Shown here piece by piece: positions 40-57,262 of a stretch of 64,000 nucleotides of DNA. The position numbers and the translations under genes are program-made. The DNA is from Sipunculus nudus (Eukaryota > Annelida > Sipuncula > Golfingiida > Sipunculidae): the NCBI GenBank assembly GCA_026874595.1, contig CM049314.1:72926300-72990299 (forward strand), given 5' to 3'. Every line of letters starts with the position of its first letter. Positions within the stretch are counted from its first letter, which is position 1. Below the pieces are notes generated by a model, which saw nothing but the letters and a program-made list of their open reading frames with translations, ran no database searches and was not told the DNA's origin.

Positions 40-1010
40 TGTATCGCACTAACATTCTAATACGAACTCTTAAATGTAGTTTCGTCTTCATGTGACCAAT
101 AACCTTGGCTATCGGCAGTTGTTTGGATATATTGAGAAATATGATTTTTATATTAATTTTATATTAACTAGATTTATATCAACTGCTACTATTATATAAT
201 AGCCTGTCATTGTAGATGTACATAGAGTAAAACTTATTTATTATTCTAATGCATATGTTGTACTCACTATATATATTATTTAGGTCTATAAGAACAGAAG
301 TTTTGGAGCTGATGTACTTTTGCTTGTAATGCCAGTAGTCTGTTGACATTTACTGTTTTTACTCAAAAATAAATATTACGAAATAAACACTAAAGTGGAC
401 AAGGGGCTAAGTTATCATATAATAAATAATTTATCATTATATGATGGCTTTCCTGTGTGTTTACTTAGTTTCTGGCTGGTTTCGAATCACGCTTGAGAAA
501 CGGAGGAACTCATCCTGTCAATTCAGCCACTACGACTGTCTGTACCAGACTGGCATTCGTCGAACGGTAGCATACAATAGACCCATCGACATCATAGAGT
601 AGTGTTAGACACAAACAAATTGATAGTGTAACATTTATCAAACCAAAGGTCTTATAATAAAATCAAACCACAAATTGTTGTGGTCCTGGATGTATTGTGG
701 ACCAGAATGAAATATATTGTGGCTTAATTCCTGTTCCAGTTGACATATTCTCATGCATACCTAGGCCTAAAACGTACCACATCGTTTGACAACCATGCGA
801 AACAATATAAGAACCAACATTTATACTTAATATGACTTTGGTTATTCTGGAACTGGTTGCCAAGTGAAATGGCGTCTGCTATTGGTTTGCAATTTTGGTG
901 TTTTAATTTTCAGAATATTCGTTACAATAACAACCAATCTGTGGCATTTAAATGAAGTTCTTTGTGACCAATAATTTTATTCATCACCAATGGTTTTTAG
1001 ATGTTATGCA
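40..1010 (+). repeat. Duplicated block C, first copy
   Basis: Diverged direct duplicate of 27180-27860. Shared stretches include the phrases around 77 and 27240 (TGTAGTTTC), around 165-320 and 27345-27495 (TGTAGATGTACATAGAGTAAA), and around 990 and 27820 (CAATGGTTTT). Similarity is strong to about 420 and weaker beyond. No reading frame here looks coding. It implies that the PAN-like gene array continues to the left of the window. Confidence 0.6.
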
Positions 1011-8200: not shown

Positions 8201-8267
8201 ACCGCAGGATATTGTCTGTTGTTCTTAAGCAACTAGAGAACTGGGACCAAAGAAAAAGCTATCGGTC

Positions 8268-9166
8268 ATGCTGTGGATAATGTTTTCAATTGTAATTCTG
8301 TTGCTGATCGGAAGATTGGTTATAGCAAAGAAATTTAAACATTTTCCGGATTCGGGATTGTCCGGAGCTTCCGCTATATATACAACAACAGCTTCTTTGA
8401 CGTTTTGCTTTTCATTTTGCACCAGTGATAAAAGTTGTAATTCGCTTGAGTGCCTTTCTGAAGAAAACAAATGCCGCCTCTATAACGAGGGTGAGAATGA
8501 CGGGTTTTACGTGAGTTCCGCACACACAGACTTGTACATAGCTGTGAACCCGCCCTTTGTATGGTATCTTGTGTTACATGCCACCGCTGGTGTCTCTCAG
8601 AGAGTCGTTAATTTTTGTACGTCACAAGGAAGTACCAATCTGACGTCAACGGGAACGGAAACCCGTCAAACCCCGCCAACCAAGCGACAAGTCATTACAT
8701 AGGTGGACTTGTGGACAATTGGGAATATCTGAATCCTTCAGAAGTCAAGTTTGTTTTTTACAAAAATGGCGGTGAATTTTCTCATTTTTTATTCAATGCT
8801 ATCGGGAGTGACAAGATGAACTGGTTTTCACTTGATAGATTTCAGTTTGGTACCTATTCAGATATCAAAGTAAAAATGTTGTCACCATCTTGCACTGGTC
8901 TAGGATGTAAATTTTCTATAATGGGCCACCCTTATAACGTAGCAGGTCCACATCGTCGATTTCTTGTAAGCTGGTATTACAACGGCTGTCCTGATGACGT
9001 GGGCTGGATCATAGTCATCGAAAAAGACACGCCTCATGATGTTTGTAACTTCCAAATACAATAATTGGCCTTCGTTTATGTACTCCACCACAGGACAACG
9101 GGACAATTTGCTTATTCAAATGCTATGGAAACGGCCGACACTCTGGCGGTGTTTCTAAAATTTTAA
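8268..9166 (+). pseudogene. PAN-like secreted protein, frameshifted copy
   Basis: Nearly full-length relative of the intact gene at 24326-25213, with a signal peptide, the KKFKHFPDSG start, the cysteine-rich N-terminal domain and the C-terminal domain (MNWFSLDRFQ, WYYNGCPDD). Two lesions break it. A net 2-nt insertion near 8646-8660 moves the second half into another frame. An 8-nt deletion near 9050, relative to the copy at 18108, causes a stop at about 9062. The remaining 3' end is still readable to the ancestral stop near 9164. In the cysteine-rich part it has an extra cysteine (SLECLSEE where the intact copy has FEWLSEE). Confidence 0.9.
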
Positions 9167-18000: not shown

Positions 18001-18107
18001 AGTAACAAATTGCGTTTCATTTACGTAAATCCTTCGAAACGTGCACGTACTTACAGTCTGCTGTGATCAGGAAATATAAATCAACTTTGCGGATTCCGTT
18101 ATGCAAA
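15060..18107 (+). repeat. Duplicated block A, second copy
   Basis: Direct duplicate of 2591-5130 with many indels. It carries a private tandem duplication of about 143 bp at 15427-15703. A C-run joined to an A-run lies at about 17273-17300. The block ends abruptly at about 18107, where it joins the middle of a PAN-like gene copy. No coding region supported. Confidence 0.8.
15427..15703 (+). repeat. Two-copy tandem duplication, about 143 bp
   Basis: The phrase TTCATTCCGAATGCTG and the following TATCGACAGGTCCCC occur twice, about 143 bp apart, and end with AGTTAACAAAATATGTC each time. Copy A at 2960-3080 has this only once, so the duplication arose after the segmental duplication. Confidence 0.8.
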
Positions 18108-18582
18108 ATTGAACTTGTTGATATTTGGGAATCTGAATCCATCAGGGGTCACTATTTTGTGTTATACACGAACGGAGGTGAAGTTGTTTATTTGTTATTC
18201 AATACTATCAGGAGTGACAAGATGAACTGGTTTTCACTTGATAGATTTCAGTTTGGTACCTTTTCAGATATCAAAGTAAAAATGTTGTCACCAGCTTGCA
18301 CTGGTCTGGAATGTAAGTTTTCTATAATGGGCCACCGTTTTGACACAGGAGGTGCACATCGAAAATTTCTTGTAAGCTAGTATTACAGCGGCTGTCCTGT
18401 TGACACGGGCAGGATCATGGTGACCGAAAAAGACACACCTCATGATGTTTGTGATTTTGTAACTTCCAAATACAATACTTGGCCTGTGTTCATGTACTCT
18501 ACAACAGGACAAGTGGAGCCATTTGCTGATTCAAATGCTATGGAAACGGCCGACACTCTGGTGGTGTTTCTAATATTTTTAA
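18108..18582 (+). pseudogene. PAN-like secreted protein, 5'-truncated copy
   Basis: Begins in mid-gene (DIWESESIRG) and runs through the C-terminal domain (MNWFSLDRFQ). The signal peptide and cysteine-rich domain are missing. The WYYNGC tryptophan codon has become TAG at about 18379, and the last codons carry an extra T so the ancestral stop is lost. Its 5' limit is exactly where block A ends, so the truncation comes from a deletion of the sequence that lies at about 5130-8707 in the first unit. Confidence 0.88.
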
Positions 18583-24110: not shown

Positions 24111-24325
24111 GCAATATCAACTGGACGAATATAGACGAGACCGAATATAGGCAATCACTGGAAGAGGAAGAAGAAAAGGGGGTTGGAATGAGAACATCGG
24201 CTATTCTAAGTTGATAACCCGGCCAGTTGTTCCATTTTAACACGCCGCAGGATATTGCCTATTGTTCTTATTCAACCAGAGCACTCCTGGGACCAAAGAA
24301 AAAGACATCAATCAAGCAGCGCATA

Positions 24326-25213
24326 ATGTGCTCATTGGTAATTTTGTTGCTGATTGGAAGTTCCGTTATAGCTAAGAAATTCAAACATTTTCCAGATTCA
24401 GGATTGTCTGGAGCCTCTGCCGTATATACAATAAAAGCTCCTTTGATTTATTGTTTTTCCTTTTGCACCAAGGAACAAAGCTGTAATTCGTTCGAGTGGC
24501 TTTCTGAAGAAAACCTATGCCGCCTTTACAAGGAGGGTGAGAATGACGGGTCTTTCTTGAGTTCTGCACACACTGACTTGTACATAGCCATGAACCCGCC
24601 CTGTGGATGGTATCTTGTGTTTCACGCCACCGCTGGTATTTCACAGAGTGTCGCTAATTTGTGGCCGTCACAAGGAGGTACCAATCTGACGTCATGGGAC
24701 GGAAACCCGTCAAACCCCGCCATCCAAGCGACAAGTCATTACAAAAGTGGACTTGCGGACATTTGGGAATCAATGAATCCCTTAGAGGCCAGGTTTGTGT
24801 TATACAAGAACGGCAGTGAAGTTGTTCATTTCTTATTCAATGCTATCGGGAGTGACAAGATGAACTGGTTTTCGCTCAATAGATTTCAGTCTGGTACCTA
24901 TTCAGATATCAAAATAAACATGTTGTTACCATCTTGCACTGGTCTGGGATGTAACTTTTCCATAATGGGCCACCCTGAGAACAAAGGAGGTCCACATCGA
25001 AGATTTCTTGTAAGCTGGTATTACAATGGCTGTCCTGGTGACAAAGGCTGGATGATGGTTATCGACAACGATTATGATGTTTGTAAATGGGCTCAGTCCA
25101 GGAATAGTAGTTGGCCTGTCTTCATGTACTCAAAATCAGGGGAAGCAGATCTGTTCAGCAGTTCAACAGTCATGGAAACGGCAGACAGTCTTGCAGTGTT
25201 TGTAAAGTTTTAA
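24326..25213 (+). CDS. Secreted PAN/apple-like domain protein, intact copy
   Basis: A single-exon gene for 295 aa. I chose the ATG at 24326 because it opens a clean signal peptide (MCSLVILLLIGSSVIA, residues 1-16); the upstream open frame has no ATG. Residues about 40-70 form a short cysteine-rich module (C43, C47, C53, C65) resembling the core of PAN/apple domains, which bind proteins or sugars. The rest, about residues 93-295, is one domain with MNWFSLNRFQSGTYSDI, RRFLVSWYYNGCPGD, GWMMV and a C-terminal ADSLAVFVKF. I recognise this arrangement from uncharacterised mollusc proteins but know no function. Four Asn-X-Ser/Thr sites (NLT, NGS, NFS, NSS) fit secretion. It is the only unbroken copy in the array. 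A role in recognition or defence would be a guess. Confidence 0.88.
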   Translation: MCSLVILLLIGSSVIAKKFKHFPDSGLSGASAVYTIKAPLIYCFSFCTKEQSCNSFEWLSEENLCRLYKEGENDGSFLSSAHTDLYIAMNPPCGWYLVFHATAGISQSVANLWPSQGGTNLTSWDGNPSNPAIQATSHYKSGLADIWESMNPLEARFVLYKNGSEVVHFLFNAIGSDKMNWFSLNRFQSGTYSDIKINMLLPSCTGLGCNFSIMGHPENKGGPHRRFLVSWYYNGCPGDKGWMMVIDNDYDVCKWAQSRNSSWPVFMYSKSGEADLFSSSTVMETADSLAVFVKF

Positions 25214-28534: not shown

Positions 28535-31500
28535 ATGATACTACTTGTTAATTATTAGAGAATGACCCTATTTGTTTATTACAACTCAGTGACAGTACTT
28601 ACTAATTACTAGAGAATTACGTTACTCGTTAATAATTAGAAGGTGACCCTACTTGCTAATTATTACAGAATAAACCTTCTTATGAAATATTAAAGGCTGA
28701 CTTTACTTATAAATTTTTATAGCATTACCAAACTTGTTACATATTACAGGATGGCCCTTCTTATAAATCATAATAGGATGACCCTAATTGTTAATATTAG
28801 TGGATGACCCTACTTATTAAATATTAGAAGATGACCCTACTTATTAAATATTAAAGGATGACCTCACTTGTTGATAATAGAGGATGACCCTACTTGTTAA
28901 TAACAGAGGATGACCCTACTTGTTTATAATAGAGGATGACCCCACTTGTTAATAATAGAGGATGACCCTACTTGTTAATAACAGAGGATGACCTCACTTG
29001 TTAATAACAGAGGATGACCCTACTTGTTAAAAACAGAGGATGACCCCACTTGTAAATAATAGAGGATGACCCCACTTGTTAATAACAGAGGATGACCTCA
29101 CTTGTTAATTACAGAGGATGACCCTACTTGTTAATAACAGAGGATGACCCCACTTTTTAATAACAGAGGATGACCCTACTTGTTAATAATAGAGGATGAC
29201 CCCACTTGTCAATGATAGAGGATGGCCCTACTTCTTAGTAATTGAGGATGACCCCACTTGTTAATAATAGAGGATGACCCCACTTGTTAATGATAGAGGA
29301 TGGTCCTACTTCTTAATAATAGAGGATGACCCTACTTGTTAATAATAGAGGGTGACCCGTTTGTTAATAATAGAGGATGACCTCACTTGTTAATAATAGA
29401 GGATGACCTCACTTGTTAATGATAGAGGATGGCCCTACTTCTTAATAATAGAGGATGACCCTACTTGTTAATAACAGAGGATGACCCCACTTGTTAATAA
29501 TAGAGGATGACCCTACTTGTTATAATAGAGGATGACCCTACTTGTTAAAAATATATGATGACCCTACTTCTTAGTAATTGAGGATGACCCCACTTGTTAA
29601 TAATAGAGGATGACCCCACTTGTCAATGATAGAGGATGGCCCTACTTCTTAATAATAGAGGATGACCCTACTTGTTAATAATAGAGGACGGCCCGTTTGT
29701 TAATAATAGAGGACGACCCTTCATGTTAATAATAGAGGATGACCTCACTTGTTAATAATACAGGATGACCCTACCTGTTATTAATATATGATTACCCTTC
29801 TTGCTAATAACAGAGGATGACCCTACTTGTTAATAATATATGATGACCCTACTTCTTAATAACTGAGGATGACCCTTCTTGTTAATAACAGAGGATGACC
29901 CCACTTGTTAATAATATATGATGACCCTACTTCATAATAACAGAGGATGACCATACTTGTTAATAATATATGATGACCCTACTTTTTAATAACTGAGGAT
30001 GACCCTTCTTGTTAATAATAGAGGATGACCCCACTTGTTAATAATAGAGGATGAACCCACTTGTTAATAATAGAGGATGACCCCACTTGTTAATAATAAA
30101 GGATGTCCCTACTTCATAATAACAGAGGATGACCCTACTTGTTAATAGTACAGGATGACCCACTTGTAAATAAAAGAGGACGACTCTTCTTGTTAATAAT
30201 GGAGGATGACCTCACTTGTTAATAATACAGGATGACCCTTTTTGTTGATAATAGAGGATGACCCCACTTGTTAATAATAGAGGATGACCCTATATGTTAA
30301 TAACACAGGATGACCCTACTTGTTAATAAGAGAGGATGACCCTTCTTGTTAATAATAGAGGATGACCCCACTTGTTAATAATAGAGAATGACCCTACTTC
30401 ATAATAACAGAGGATGTTAATGGTACAGAATGACCCACTTGTTAATAAAAGAGGATGACCCCACTTGTTAATAATACAGGATGACCCTTTTTGTTGATAA
30501 TAGAGGATGACCCCACTTGTTAATAATAGAGGATGACCCTATATGTTAATAACACAGGATGACCCTACTTGTTAATAAGAGAGGATGACCCTTCTTGTTA
30601 ATAATAGAGGATGACCCCACTTGTTAATAATAGAGAATGACCCTACTTCATAATAACAGAGGATGTTAATGGTACAGGATGACCCACTTGTTAATAATAG
30701 AGGATGACCCTACTTGTTAATAATATATGATGACCCTACTTCTTAATAACTGAAGATGACCCTTCTTGTAAATAATAGAGGATGACCCCACTTGTTAATA
30801 ATAGAGGATGTCCCTACTTCATAATAACAGAGGATGACCCTACTTGTTAATAGTACAGGATGACCCACTTGTTAATAAAAGAGGACGACTCTTCTTGTTA
30901 ATAATGGAGGATGACATCACTTGTTAATAATACAGGATGACCCTTTTTGTTGATAATAGAGGATGACCCCACTTGTTAATAATAGAGGATGACCCTATAT
31001 GTTAATAACACAGGATGACCCTACTTGTTAATAAGAGAGGATGACCCTTCTTGTTAATAATATATGATGACCCTACTTCTTAATAATAGAGGGTGACCCT
31101 ACTTGTTAATAACAGAGGATGACCCTACTTCTTAATAATAGAGGATGACCTTTCTTGTTAATAATATATGATTACCGTTCTTGTTGATAATAGAGGATGA
31201 CCCCACTTGTTAATAATACAGGATGACCCTACTTGTTAATAATATATGATGACCCTTTTTGTTGATAATAGAGGATGACCCTACTTGTTAATAATATATG
31301 ATGACCCTACTTCTTAATAATAGAGGATGACCCTACCTGTTAATAACACAGGATGACCCTCCTTGTTAATAATAGAGGATGGCCCTACCTGGTAATAATA
31401 GAGGATGACCCTACTTGTTAATAATAGAGGATGAACCCACTTGTTAATAATAGAGGATGAACCTTCTTGTTAATAATACAGGATGACCCTTCTTGTTAAT

Positions 31501-31860
31501 AAAATATGATTTCCCTATTTGTTAATAATAGAGGATGACCTTACTTGTTAATAATAGAGGATGACCCTACTTGTTAATAATAGATGATGACCCTACTTTT
31601 TTAATAATATATGATGACCCTACTTCTTAATACTAGAGGATGACCCTACATGTTAATAATAGAGGATGACCCTATTTGTTAATAATAGAGGATGACCCTA
31701 CTTGTTAAATATTAGAAGATTACCCTACTTGTAAAATATTAATGGATGACCCTACTTGTTAAATATTAGGTTCATCCTTCAACAATGATAAGTAGGGTCA
31801 TTTCCTTATATTTAACAAGTAGGGTGACCCCTAATATTTAACAAGTAGGGGCATTTTTTA
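28535..31860. repeat. Large minisatellite, unit about 26 bp
   Basis: About 3.3 kb of a unit close to GAGGATGACCCTACTTGTTA plus ATAATA, roughly 120 copies. Unit length is not a multiple of three and stops occur in every frame, so it is not protein repeat DNA. The left edge (28535-28790) is degenerate with longer, irregular units; the centre is homogeneous. Higher-order repeats are visible: a block containing TTTTTGTTGATAATAG then CCTATATGTTAATAACAC recurs near 30239, 30488 and 30946. At the right end (about 31766-31860) the unit is inverted. Confidence 0.97.
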
Positions 31861-42002: not shown

Positions 42003-44378
42003 GTAAATGAAACAAATAACTGGAAATATACATTCTGAAGTATGCAGGCCTCCGCCATGTGGGGTGTCCCCATTGAGTTGTGCTCCCCGAAACCCGTGTT
42101 TGCAATCACTTATTCGGCTAATATTCCATGGTTCATTCGTGTATAAGTGACTGTACATTTGTGAACATACCTTGACGACGTCCCGGATTAAGGATCATAC
42201 TTTTCATTAGCTTCTTTTTATGGGACCGCCCCGCCCCATGCACACACACGCTTTTACACATTGGCCGGTGGAATTTGGAGTGGTAAACTATTCCGCTTTC
42301 TCCGCTGACTTCTCGGCTTCAATCCCCTGCGTGGATATGAGAAGGGGTTGTAGTGGCCCGTACAAGGTCGGTGTTTTTCTCAGTCGTTCTCTGGTTTCTC
42401 TCAACTCTAGACACTACCAAACGCCACCATCTGAGCCATGGAGAGTGCCTTGTGTAGTTATAATAACTATTTCTACAGTCCATGTCATTTTAAAAAAAAG
42501 TTTGAAACATTTGGGTAAGAAAGGTTGGGTTCTCAGTCTCTTTCTGTTGAGAAATCAGTTCTGTATAGTTCGTTTAAAATGTCATATGATGAGGGAAAAT
42601 TAAGCATGAAAATAACAGAATTGTTTTGCTAAACAGGTAAAATCACTACATGACAAAGGAAACCGTATCAAAATTGTATAAATTTATCTTCTTGAAAGAT
42701 TTGTCCACTGGAGCTCAAAATTGGTATGTTTCTATTGAAAATAATAATCATAAATATGCGGAGGGTTACAATGCCTGAGAACTATACCTTTTATTTTATT
42801 TTTTTATTTATTTATTTTATTTTTTTTTTACCATAAACATTGTTCCACAATCGAAAACATGCATATATTATTTTTAACAGAACGGCGATGTGGTTGTGGG
42901 GCAGACATCTTGCGTTTTGTCAGATGAACTCAACCAGGATGCCCCTGTCCAGAAAAACATCACGTTCAACGAACCTATGAGCGCGGCACATGTCTTCCAA
43001 GGCCTAGAGAAAGATATGGGTGAGTTCTTAGACGCTACTTAAAATTATCATAATTTATCTATAACATGACTATATTTATATTGACACGCAGATGTATTGT
43101 AGCATGTTGTAATGTGCTTTGCATTATATGCTAAACATCTAGTCACACACACATGTGGATATGTATGTTTAAAATCATACGTTAATACGTATGATTACGC
43201 TCCTAATTATGGACAACCCTGATGACGTCAGACCATCATGACCTAAAGACCAAGGTGAATGACGTCCGTAATGACCTTATGTAGCAGAAACGACGCCCTG
43301 GTGGGGTCATGGGTCCTTAATGCATAATGGTGAATTATCTTATCTACATTAAATCATCTGTCCAGCTCTCGGGGTAATCTCAGTTGACAAATCACCTCAT
43401 TCTCATGTTGGTGGGGTTTTTTTTTCTTAAATAAATACATATCGTTTTGTTTAATTTCTCCAAACGAGACCAAAACTTTAGTGATTTAGTTGTTTTATGC
43501 GGAAAATCCATAGGACTAAGAACTTGCGTTAACCAATTTTTACATTAACATTTTAAATTTTTAATTTTGAAGGAGACCAAGAGCTGAAGATAGAGGGCGC
43601 CAGTCATCGAAAGCTCAGGGCTCTCTTGGAAACCTTAGTCAAACCTGATCGCAAAAAGAAGGGAGACACGACAGCTCGATTTAAACGGCAAGTATTTTGG
43701 ATTGCCTTTTATTTATTCATTTGAAGATTCTTTTGGCGTCGCGTGTTTTTAAAACTATAGGGTTAATGCATGTAAATTCAATCAACAATACCCGTTACAA
43801 ATACAACATGTATTGGTGCAAATGTTCTATTATATGAAAAATAACGAGCAAGATCAAGGTCACCAATGTCCATATATGACGGAGACTTCGGTGGAAATAA
43901 TCTGTGTACCACATTTGAAGAAAAAAAATAATTATTATAATATGAAAGGAATCTGTCCATTAGTTTTTGGCTTATGGTGCTCATATATATATCACTGTCA
44001 AGTGGCAATGATGGGGGGGGGGGTATGAACAGGCGCGAATACAAGAAAAGGATAATAGTGGTAATATCAGTCTCCCGTACTAGACAAAACTATTCAAGAC
44101 CTTAGGTCGGCTTTAGTTTTGGATCAATCCACGCAAGCGTTCATGAGATATTTAAGATTATGTGTAATTTCTAATCAGGATATATCCAAATGCAAGGTCA
44201 CTCTCCTACTAAAGGTCATGACCTCATTTTAATTAGGCTCCGTCCTTTCACCCATATCCAACACGTCATATGAAACATTCGTTATCTCGCAGACAATATT
44301 TTTCTGCGGCGGCTGCGGGACCGTGCTAAATCATAGTATCCCCGACTTTGTATTTGATTTATTTAGAATTTTTTATTG

Positions 44379-55838: not shown

Positions 55839-55859
55839 TATTCTTAAAAGATATATATA

Positions 55860-55862
<3 letters not shown>

Positions 55863-55908
<46 letters not shown>
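55863..55908. repeat. (AT)n microsatellite
   Basis: About 23 AT units directly after the pogo-like element. Confidence 0.97.
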
Positions 55909-55911
<3 letters not shown>

Positions 55912-55938
55912 ATAGAATTAACTAAACTAGGTTTCCTG

Positions 55939-56011
55939 CAGGCATTTCATGACTAATTTGTTTCGTACCACACGCTCAGAGCGTGTGGCACTCTTCAGAT
56001 GTTGTAGCCTA
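55939..56011 (-). ncRNA. Hammerhead ribozyme candidate, type I
   Basis: Read on the minus strand. The core CTGAAGA (55998-55992) fits CUGANGA. Stem II is 12 bp with one G-U pair and a CTG loop (GTGCCACACGCT with AGCGTGTGGTAC). Then comes GAAA (55964-55961), a very short stem III closed by C-G and A-U with a loop, and the cleavage triplet GTC (55953-55951). Stem I forms from CAT with ATG, an internal loop, and AGGC with GCCT plus a U-G pair. All invariant core bases are present; the usual U in CUGAUGA is A. Short stem III with an internal loop in stem I is the layout known from Penelope-like retroelements. Predicted cleavage lies between 55951 and 55950. Confidence 0.8.
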
Positions 56012-56026
56012 ATATATAGTGCTGTA

Positions 56027-56184
56027 TCAGTTGACGGGGGTCTCTTGTAAAGTCACTGGGGTCAGGGCCAACTGTAGGGTGTCATTCATCTTTGTTGAGG
56101 GCCGGCATCTAGTATTTTCACTGGTCCGAGTGCTGGGGGCTGCGTTACCCTTGGAACACTCTGCCATCAGTTTTTGCAACTGTA

Positions 56185-56200
<16 letters not shown>
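56027..56200 (-). pseudogene. Possible retroelement ORF tail before the ribozyme
   Basis: A minus-strand open frame ending in a stop 16 nt upstream of the ribozyme (LQKLMAECSKG to TLQETPVN). It has no domain I recognise. Its place directly before a hammerhead would suit the end of a retroelement ORF followed by a ribozyme-bearing terminal repeat, but it may be chance. Confidence 0.25.

Positions 56201-56231
<31 letters not shown>
56190..56231. repeat. (TA)n microsatellite
   Basis: About 20 TA units, immediately beyond the ORF tail above. Confidence 0.95.
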
Positions 56232-56233
<2 letters not shown>

Positions 56234-56299
56234 TAAGATCATATAAATATATAGGTTAAGTTTTGTTCGCCTTCGTTACTCTCCAGCTAGGTACCTCCC

Positions 56300-56817: not shown

Positions 56818-57185
56818 ACATTCATCAGCTTTGTGAAAATAAACCATAAACTAAGAAAAAGAGACATTCATCAGCTTTGTGAAAATAAACCATAAACTAA
56901 GAAAAAGAGACATTCATCAGCTTTGTGAAAATAAACCATAAACTAAGAAAAAGAGACATTCATCAGCTTTGTGAAAATAAACCATAAACTAAGAAAAAGA
57001 GACATTCATCAGCTTTGTGAAAATAAACCATAAACTAAGAAAAAGAGACATTCATCATCTTTGTGAAAATAAACCATAAACTAAGAAAAAGAGACATTCA
57101 TCAGCTTTGTGAAAATAAACCATAAACTAAGAAAAAGTGACATTCATCAGCTTTGTGAAAATAAACCATAAATTAAGAAAAAGAG
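56818..57185. repeat. Minisatellite, eight 46-bp units
   Basis: Exactly 368 bp, eight copies of a 46-bp unit beginning ACATTCATCAGCTTTGTG and ending AAGAAAAAGAG. Only a few substitutions occur (ATCATCTT in unit 6, AAAAGTG in unit 7, AAATTAAG in unit 8). Such homogeneity implies recent expansion. There are no variable spacers. Confidence 0.98.
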
Positions 57186-57262
57186 AATACATGTTACACA
57201 TAAAACGAAAAGGTCTTCCTGGTTGGACCCCTCCTTTTCCTAAATCCTGGATCCGTACCTGC

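Follow-up and report, generated by a model that had tools for sequence, protein, structure and literature searches.

In a 64,000-nt stretch of the Sipunculus nudus genome (hereafter the window; G000:C9:72926300-72990299, in a genome of 1.43 Gb) we identified, on the minus strand, a motif which is very probably the type I hammerhead ribozyme (HHR) of the pseudo-LTR (pLTR) of a Penelope-like element (PLE), carried by a short, 5′-truncated and decayed insertion, with a cleavage site predicted from its fold. By sequence comparison, the motif belongs to a repeat family that is linked to a PLE-type ORF, has covarying relatives in the same genome and lies in head-to-head arms flanked by (TA)n. PLE-borne HHRs are already known (PMC6155905, PMC11167929, PMC7229834); three features are notable here, with no claim that they are unreported: stem II reaches 12 bp, its length varies among HHRs of the same genome, and the 5′ boundary is sharp.

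The whole motif, with a complete core, spans 55939–56011 of the minus strand, on which all of its parts lie. The stem I 5′ strand (55999–56011) consists of an outer UAGGC (56011–56007), a loop UACAA and an inner CAU (56001–55999), and is followed by the core CUGAAGA (55992–55998; CUGANGA with A at position 7), a 12-bp stem II with one G.U pair and the loop CUG (55965–55991), and the core GAAA (55961–55964; G12, A13, A14 and A15.1). The helix III 10-mer of the window copy, ACAAAUUAGU, occupies 55952–55961; the cleavage site predicted from the HHR fold, GUC|A, would fall between 55951 (C17) and 55950, and the stem I 3′ strand (55939–55950) reads AUG, loop AAAU and GCCUG. Stem I is open-ended, with 3 bp, a 5 × 4 internal loop and then 5 bp including a terminal U.G pair, and the window copy has, besides CUGANGA and GAAA, an RUH site with the A15.1-U16.1 pair. 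Stem III, on the other hand, has just A-U and C-G around a 6-nt loop (55961–55952), with the third pair absent and helix III weakened. The sequence-only reading had named the A for U in the core as the one departure from the consensus; the A is present, and recurs in one relative (L061, see below), but the missing third stem III pair and a stem II longer than in five relatives are further departures. Since stem II is uninterrupted over 12 bp, the usual tertiary contact would find no loop close to stem I, and no loop-loop contact between stems I and II was found; PLE HHRs are described as usually being without it (PMC6155905). With 2 bp left in helix III, the window copy is probably weak or inactive today and, taken on its own, it is suggestive rather than decisive.

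A 101-nt query gave at least 44 matches at 40 loci of the genome (40 of 252 candidates scored; L001–L030 and L039–L048, with the window copy as L001), and the stretches matched at these scored loci are 89–97% identical to the window copy. L004 and L023 lie within a segmental duplication, as L014 and L026 probably do. Over 30 aligned copies the mean column identity is 95%, and taking the majority letter of each column gives the helix III ACUAAUUAGU, a perfect palindrome of 10 nt found exactly in 14 of these 30 and in 21 of the 40 copies. An A instead of the first U of ACUAAUUAGU is common to L001, L002, L009 and L012, and thus it may mark a subfamily instead of being decay private to the window copy. 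In line with a dispersed family, an exact 21-mer spanning helix III and the cut was counted 61 times in the genome, against 0 for its reversed control. No covariation of pairs was detected within the family (93.8% of cells paired, versus 93.7% in shuffles), the core columns are scarcely better conserved than the others (mean 0.91 versus 1.07 changes per 30 copies) and all 11 fixed core letters are intact in 21/30 copies; lack of covariation and weak core conservation are expected of dead copies. Just upstream of the PLE copy in L010, and on the strand opposite to its ribozyme, a tRNA match was also detected (L010:1616-1688; 36.1 bits versus a gathering score of 29).

The longer copies have up to about 770 nt of upstream sequence in common, with staggered 5′ ends. 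Among eight 9.9-kb stretches, a 131-codon frame ends about 200 nt before the HHR in L035, and the remaining ones hold shorter frame remnants. In L031 and its segmental duplicate L034 we identified a decayed, nearly complete element, composed of a pLTR with an HHR core, ORF remnants and a second pLTR with an HHR; the stem II of the upstream pLTR has shrunk to GU-GCCAA-AC, which allows 2 bp. A 123-aa RT-like piece (L051) matched the genome at least 150 times (150 of 558 candidates scored), with identities of 53–77%, itself excepted. Many of these scored matches are in uninterrupted 713–718-codon frames in tandem arrays. The C17:31.68 Mb series (G000:C17:31676442-31688888) repeats every 2427 bp, with frames of at most 718 codons; C17:42720734-42802951, C12:49441562-49505576 and others repeat at intervals of about 2920 bp, with frames reaching 713 codons. 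The PLE ORFs of the three series with coordinates appear intact, and those at C12:49.44-49.51 Mb lie on both strands. One further PLE RT match, at G000:C9:45913033-45913320, is inside an uninterrupted frame of 1867 codons, far longer than the frames of its relatives.

A 2211-nt stretch of the 2427-bp C17 series (L072) encodes an intact 710-aa ORF, of which residues 1–72 and 92–701 map by tblastn onto L031 in several frames. It contains FDVVDFYPS and YRDDG, which we take to be RT motifs, and CNC..C..CL..IYQ..YIG, presumably the PLE-type GIY-YIG module. Sequence searches of Pfam, NCBIfam and PDB identified no RT or GIY-YIG domain, either in this intact ORF or in the decayed ORF pieces, and tblastn of the RT piece against phages returned six records, at E 4 or worse. 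The PLE label is therefore based on the putative motifs and on architecture, namely tandem arrays, the pLTRs that flank the L031 ORF and inverted pLTRs in the head-to-head arms of 10/40 copies. This architecture, with tandem units, direct and inverted pLTRs and a tail, matches the PLE descriptions in PMC11167929 and PMC3846280. The Penelope-like terminal-repeat context suggested from the window alone is borne out, as longer copies run into a PLE-type frame, both pLTRs of L031 have HHR cores and divergent PLEs have HHRs at the same place; likewise, the proposed genome search for further copies with an attached PLE RT returned at least 40 loci and an upstream frame that aligns with the intact 710-aa PLE-like ORF. 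The short open frame that had been noted upstream of the motif does exist (56027–56275, minus strand, 82 codons), but it is a frame across (TA)n, distinct from the ORF of the element.

For relatives of the ribozyme we examined 14 stretches of 351 nt upstream of RT matches, chosen for diversity from the 150 matches (L066 being the neighbouring unit of L058), with a descriptor requiring 3 bp in helix III. HHRs were found in 8 of the 14, versus 0.009 expected in Markov sequence, in sense in L058, L059, L061, L065, L066, L067 and L071 and on the other strand in L060; as L066 and L071 repeat L058, and L067 repeats L059, these represent five distinct sequences. HHRs are accordingly present in the pLTRs of the relatives as well as of the own family. 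L070 has an HHR core with one broken stem II pair, and no CTGANGA was found in sense in the 351-nt stretches of L062, L063, L064, L068 and L069, for which 5′ truncation is the likely explanation; these five stretches without an HHR, and the one with a broken pair, count against our main reading. In L001–L057 (581,832 strand-bases) the same descriptor gave 23 own-family hits, at loci that partly overlap, and two rows for one further decayed family copy, with no hit unrelated to the family.

The stems II of the relatives are GUGCCGU/ACGGUAC, GUGCAA/UUGCAC, GUGCAACA/UGUUGCAC, GUGAG/CUCAC and UCGGG/CCCGU (with a U-U first pair), that is 4–8 bp in the five relatives versus 12 bp in the window family. 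Their helices III are ACUGAUUAGU, ACUACGUAGU (twice), ACAGAUCUGU and ACAGUCUGU, and their cut site is GUA or GUU; helix III is palindromic in the own family, L060, L061 and L065. In a structural alignment of six sequences (own family and five relatives), 73 of 75 cells are paired and 9 of 14 homologous pairs, in all three stems, are changed on both sides, although the alignment was made by hand on the structure, and so leans towards it, and L060 and L065 are close to each other. The three stems thus covary across the six sequences, with no covariation inside the own family. In L058, L059, L061 and L065 the core lies 177–215 nt before the candidate ORF ATG. We rejected a leaderless start, in which GUC|AUGAAAUGC would directly precede an ATG with its frame open through the tail, as the relatives have GUA|AAC, GUA|GUA, GUA|GCA and GUU|GUG at this site and the ORF starts about 200 nt further on. 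Together with the relatives at the same PLE site, the comparison upholds the minus-strand type I hammerhead, with all elements in order, that had been proposed for the window.

The insertion in the window is made of two arms. Arm A (55904–56145, minus strand) is the PLE terminal repeat with the ribozyme, matching the family from −147 through the HHR, with a short 3′ end joined to (AT)n, the left insertion end (55851–55908). Arm B (56144–56183, plus strand) is part of a longer 3′ tail with a 37-nt match (56144–56180); it abuts arm A head to head in the opposite orientation and is joined to (TA)n, the right insertion end (56183–56231). The motif had been described as lying between microsatellites, and (TA)n is indeed present on either side, but as the flanks of an insertion of two head-to-head arms. 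Such arms, within about 16 nt of each other, are found in 10/40 copies (L001, L005, L011, L012, L022, L027, L028, L043, L044 and L048); L009 and L041 have inverted arms further away, and in L045, instead of inverted arms, part of the HHR region recurs in direct orientation across (TA)n. Counted from CUGA, the first TA-rich run starts at +72..101 in 11/30 copies and at +151..173 in 14/30, while 5/30 were without an automatic call. Elsewhere in the window, eight near-identical 46-bp tandem units were observed 0.8 kb from the ribozyme (56818–57186), as well as a minisatellite of about 124 copies of a 26-bp unit (28541–31762) and PAN-domain frames (Pfam PF00024) at 8229–8702 and 24218–25213; the frames at 8612–9064 and 18006–18380, with no Pfam match, resemble further parts or paralogues of the same protein.

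The plus arm starts at −21..−12, the 5′ edge of the ribozyme, in 18/40 copies, and both arms end near −21..−12 in L028, L043 and L044; these BLAST edges are accurate to a few bases, and copies truncated inside the ribozyme region are under-sampled as the query required it. In all 40 copies the match continues through the cut site to +66 or beyond, with the cut joined to downstream sequence. The clustering of plus-arm starts favours a defined RNA 5′ end near −13. Counting from CUGA, the RNA of the element would thus start at about −13, where stem I has its 5′ edge, and the ribozyme would be its first folded unit. Cleavage following GUC may cut transcripts of tandem copies to unit length; the reaction would probably work best in a dimer held by the palindromic helix III, or when the element's protein assists. 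An AT-rich cut would be the site at which reverse transcription begins, on the tail that follows the ribozyme, and extension on both strands would give head-to-head arms between (TA)n. Since the 40 examined copies keep the cut site joined to the downstream tail, the template was either uncleaved there or re-ligated. The PLE HHR, the tail, two-strand extension and inverted pLTRs have been described (PMC11167929, PMC3846280); for head-to-head junctions PMC3846280 prefers self-priming, and either this or two-strand extension may be their source here.

The same ends could be read differently. The pLTR might retain the fold chiefly because it is a terminal palindrome or a self-priming structure, with cleavage playing little or no role in transposition. 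The passage of 40/40 matches across the cut site and the start of 18/40 at the 5′ edge of the fold speak for this, as do the head-to-head junctions, read as self-priming in PMC3846280, and the finding that HHR cleavage is unnecessary for insertion in vitro (PMC11167929). However, five divergent relatives conserve the fixed core letters and the RUH site while their stem sequences change, as expected under selected catalysis, and we consider this explanation unlikely. We are similarly doubtful of a further reading for this family, in which the element RNA physically begins with the HHR, this HHR serves to terminate or prime cDNA instead of cutting, some insertions consist of a head-to-head pair of such cDNAs, and the long stem II is a derived, locked form of that role.

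It is much less probable that the motif belongs to a non-autonomous non-LTR retrozyme, the animal type I HHR in tandem repeats of 150–450 bp, and not to a PLE. Of the 40 copies, about half are fragments of some 90–190 nt, L045 has its direct repeat across (TA)n and, among the 61 genome copies of the 21-mer, 15 lie in a satellite-like region of C12 (G000:C12:70840770-71144525), several of them 701–739 bp apart, which would suit an array of about 737-bp units with the 3′ half of an HHR. On the other hand, the long copies continue into the PLE ORF, no array of HHR monomers was found at the window or in L001–L030, the canonical loop-loop contact is absent, and the C12 unit that was read (L073 1-901) holds a PLE insertion with head-to-head arms, in which the HHR is represented by its 3′ half, without CTGANGA.

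As to the motif itself, a descriptor with stem I ≥3 bp, CTGANGA, stem II ≥4 bp, GAAA and stem III ≥2 bp matches the window once, at 55939–56011, versus 0.05 matches expected (98 hits in a 248-Mb Markov strand of the window's dinucleotide composition); with stem II ≥8 bp the expectation falls to 0.0005 per window (one such hit in 248 Mb), in agreement with the earlier judgement that chance assembly is unlikely. A stricter descriptor, with 3 bp in helix III, did not match the window copy. A looser pattern matched the window twice, versus a mean of 0.11 in shuffles; the second match (43584–43640) was rejected as an HHR, being without a matching stem II. In the minimum free energy fold (−25.5) CUGA is paired with UUAG and the HHR core does not form; the HHR fold (−23.1) lies 2.4 kcal/mol higher, and the two pairs of stem III in the window copy have a probability of about 0.02. 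An exact search of viral contigs with the sequence of the 12-bp stem gave 0 matches.

The Rfam scan of the window gave no match at gathering, and RF00163 scores the window copy at 12.0 bits versus a gathering score of 34. The sequence-only reading had stated that a covariance score below threshold would tell against the ribozyme, and taken literally this is what was obtained. However, RF00163 is unlisted at E ≤10 for 12 own-family loci and listed for just one of eight relative stretches (L058–L065), and its gathering score is reached in 0/20 scanned stretches (the 12 own-family loci and the 8 relatives). The one listed, L065, scores 15.8 bits even though its stems covary and its helix III is palindromic with 3 bp; four more of the scanned stretches bear an HHR and are unlisted. 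The model is thus insensitive to PLE-type HHRs, and we rejected it as arbiter. That a 12-bp palindrome happens to lie between CTGAAGA and GAAA...GTC without ribozyme ancestry is very improbable, in spite of the low Rfam score, the eye-catching nature of any perfect hairpin and the 0.05 expectation by which some windows of a large scan would show a match, as a repeat family carries the motif at a fixed place in a PLE and five divergent relatives with covarying HHRs in that position refute chance unless the hand-made structural alignment is wrong.

Surveys relying on the Rfam type I model alone may therefore miss this PLE-borne class of HHRs. For the role of the HHR in PLEs this genome offers a natural test set, with tandem arrays of seemingly intact PLEs from at least two families, differing stem II lengths and many dead insertions that record the ends of template RNA; since the 5′ boundary falls sharply on the ribozyme edge and the junctions are uncut, a role of cleavage is directly testable.

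Compared with known systems, the animal non-LTR retrozymes share with the present case a type I HHR in animal repeats, but they are described with tandem 150–450 bp repeats and canonical loop contacts (PMC7229834), neither of which is seen here. The Penelope families of Adineta vaga (PMC3846280) resemble our element in the inverted pLTR beside a direct one, the head-to-head junctions, the optional tail and, in some families, a palindrome at the pLTR 5′ end; the portion of that paper describing them mentions no hammerhead, and their intact ORFs are about 830–842 aa versus 710 aa here (one ORF). The PLE HHRs of Lunse et al. 2017, covered by the review PMC6155905, are alike in type I topology, in pLTR location close to the ORF start, in a weak helix III that is palindromic and suited to dimers and in having no clear loop-loop contact. 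In this genome, stem II has 12 bp in the window family, 4–8 bp in the five relatives and room for 2 bp in one decayed 5′ pLTR. Finally, PAc, the Poseidon element of Anolis carolinensis (PMC11167929), shares tandem copies, an HHR at the pLTR-ORF junction, an internal RT start giving a 3′ 'tail', AT-rich targets and extension of both strands; its cut, however, is 26 nt downstream of the start codon, whereas in four relatives here the ORF starts about 180–215 nt downstream of the HHR core.
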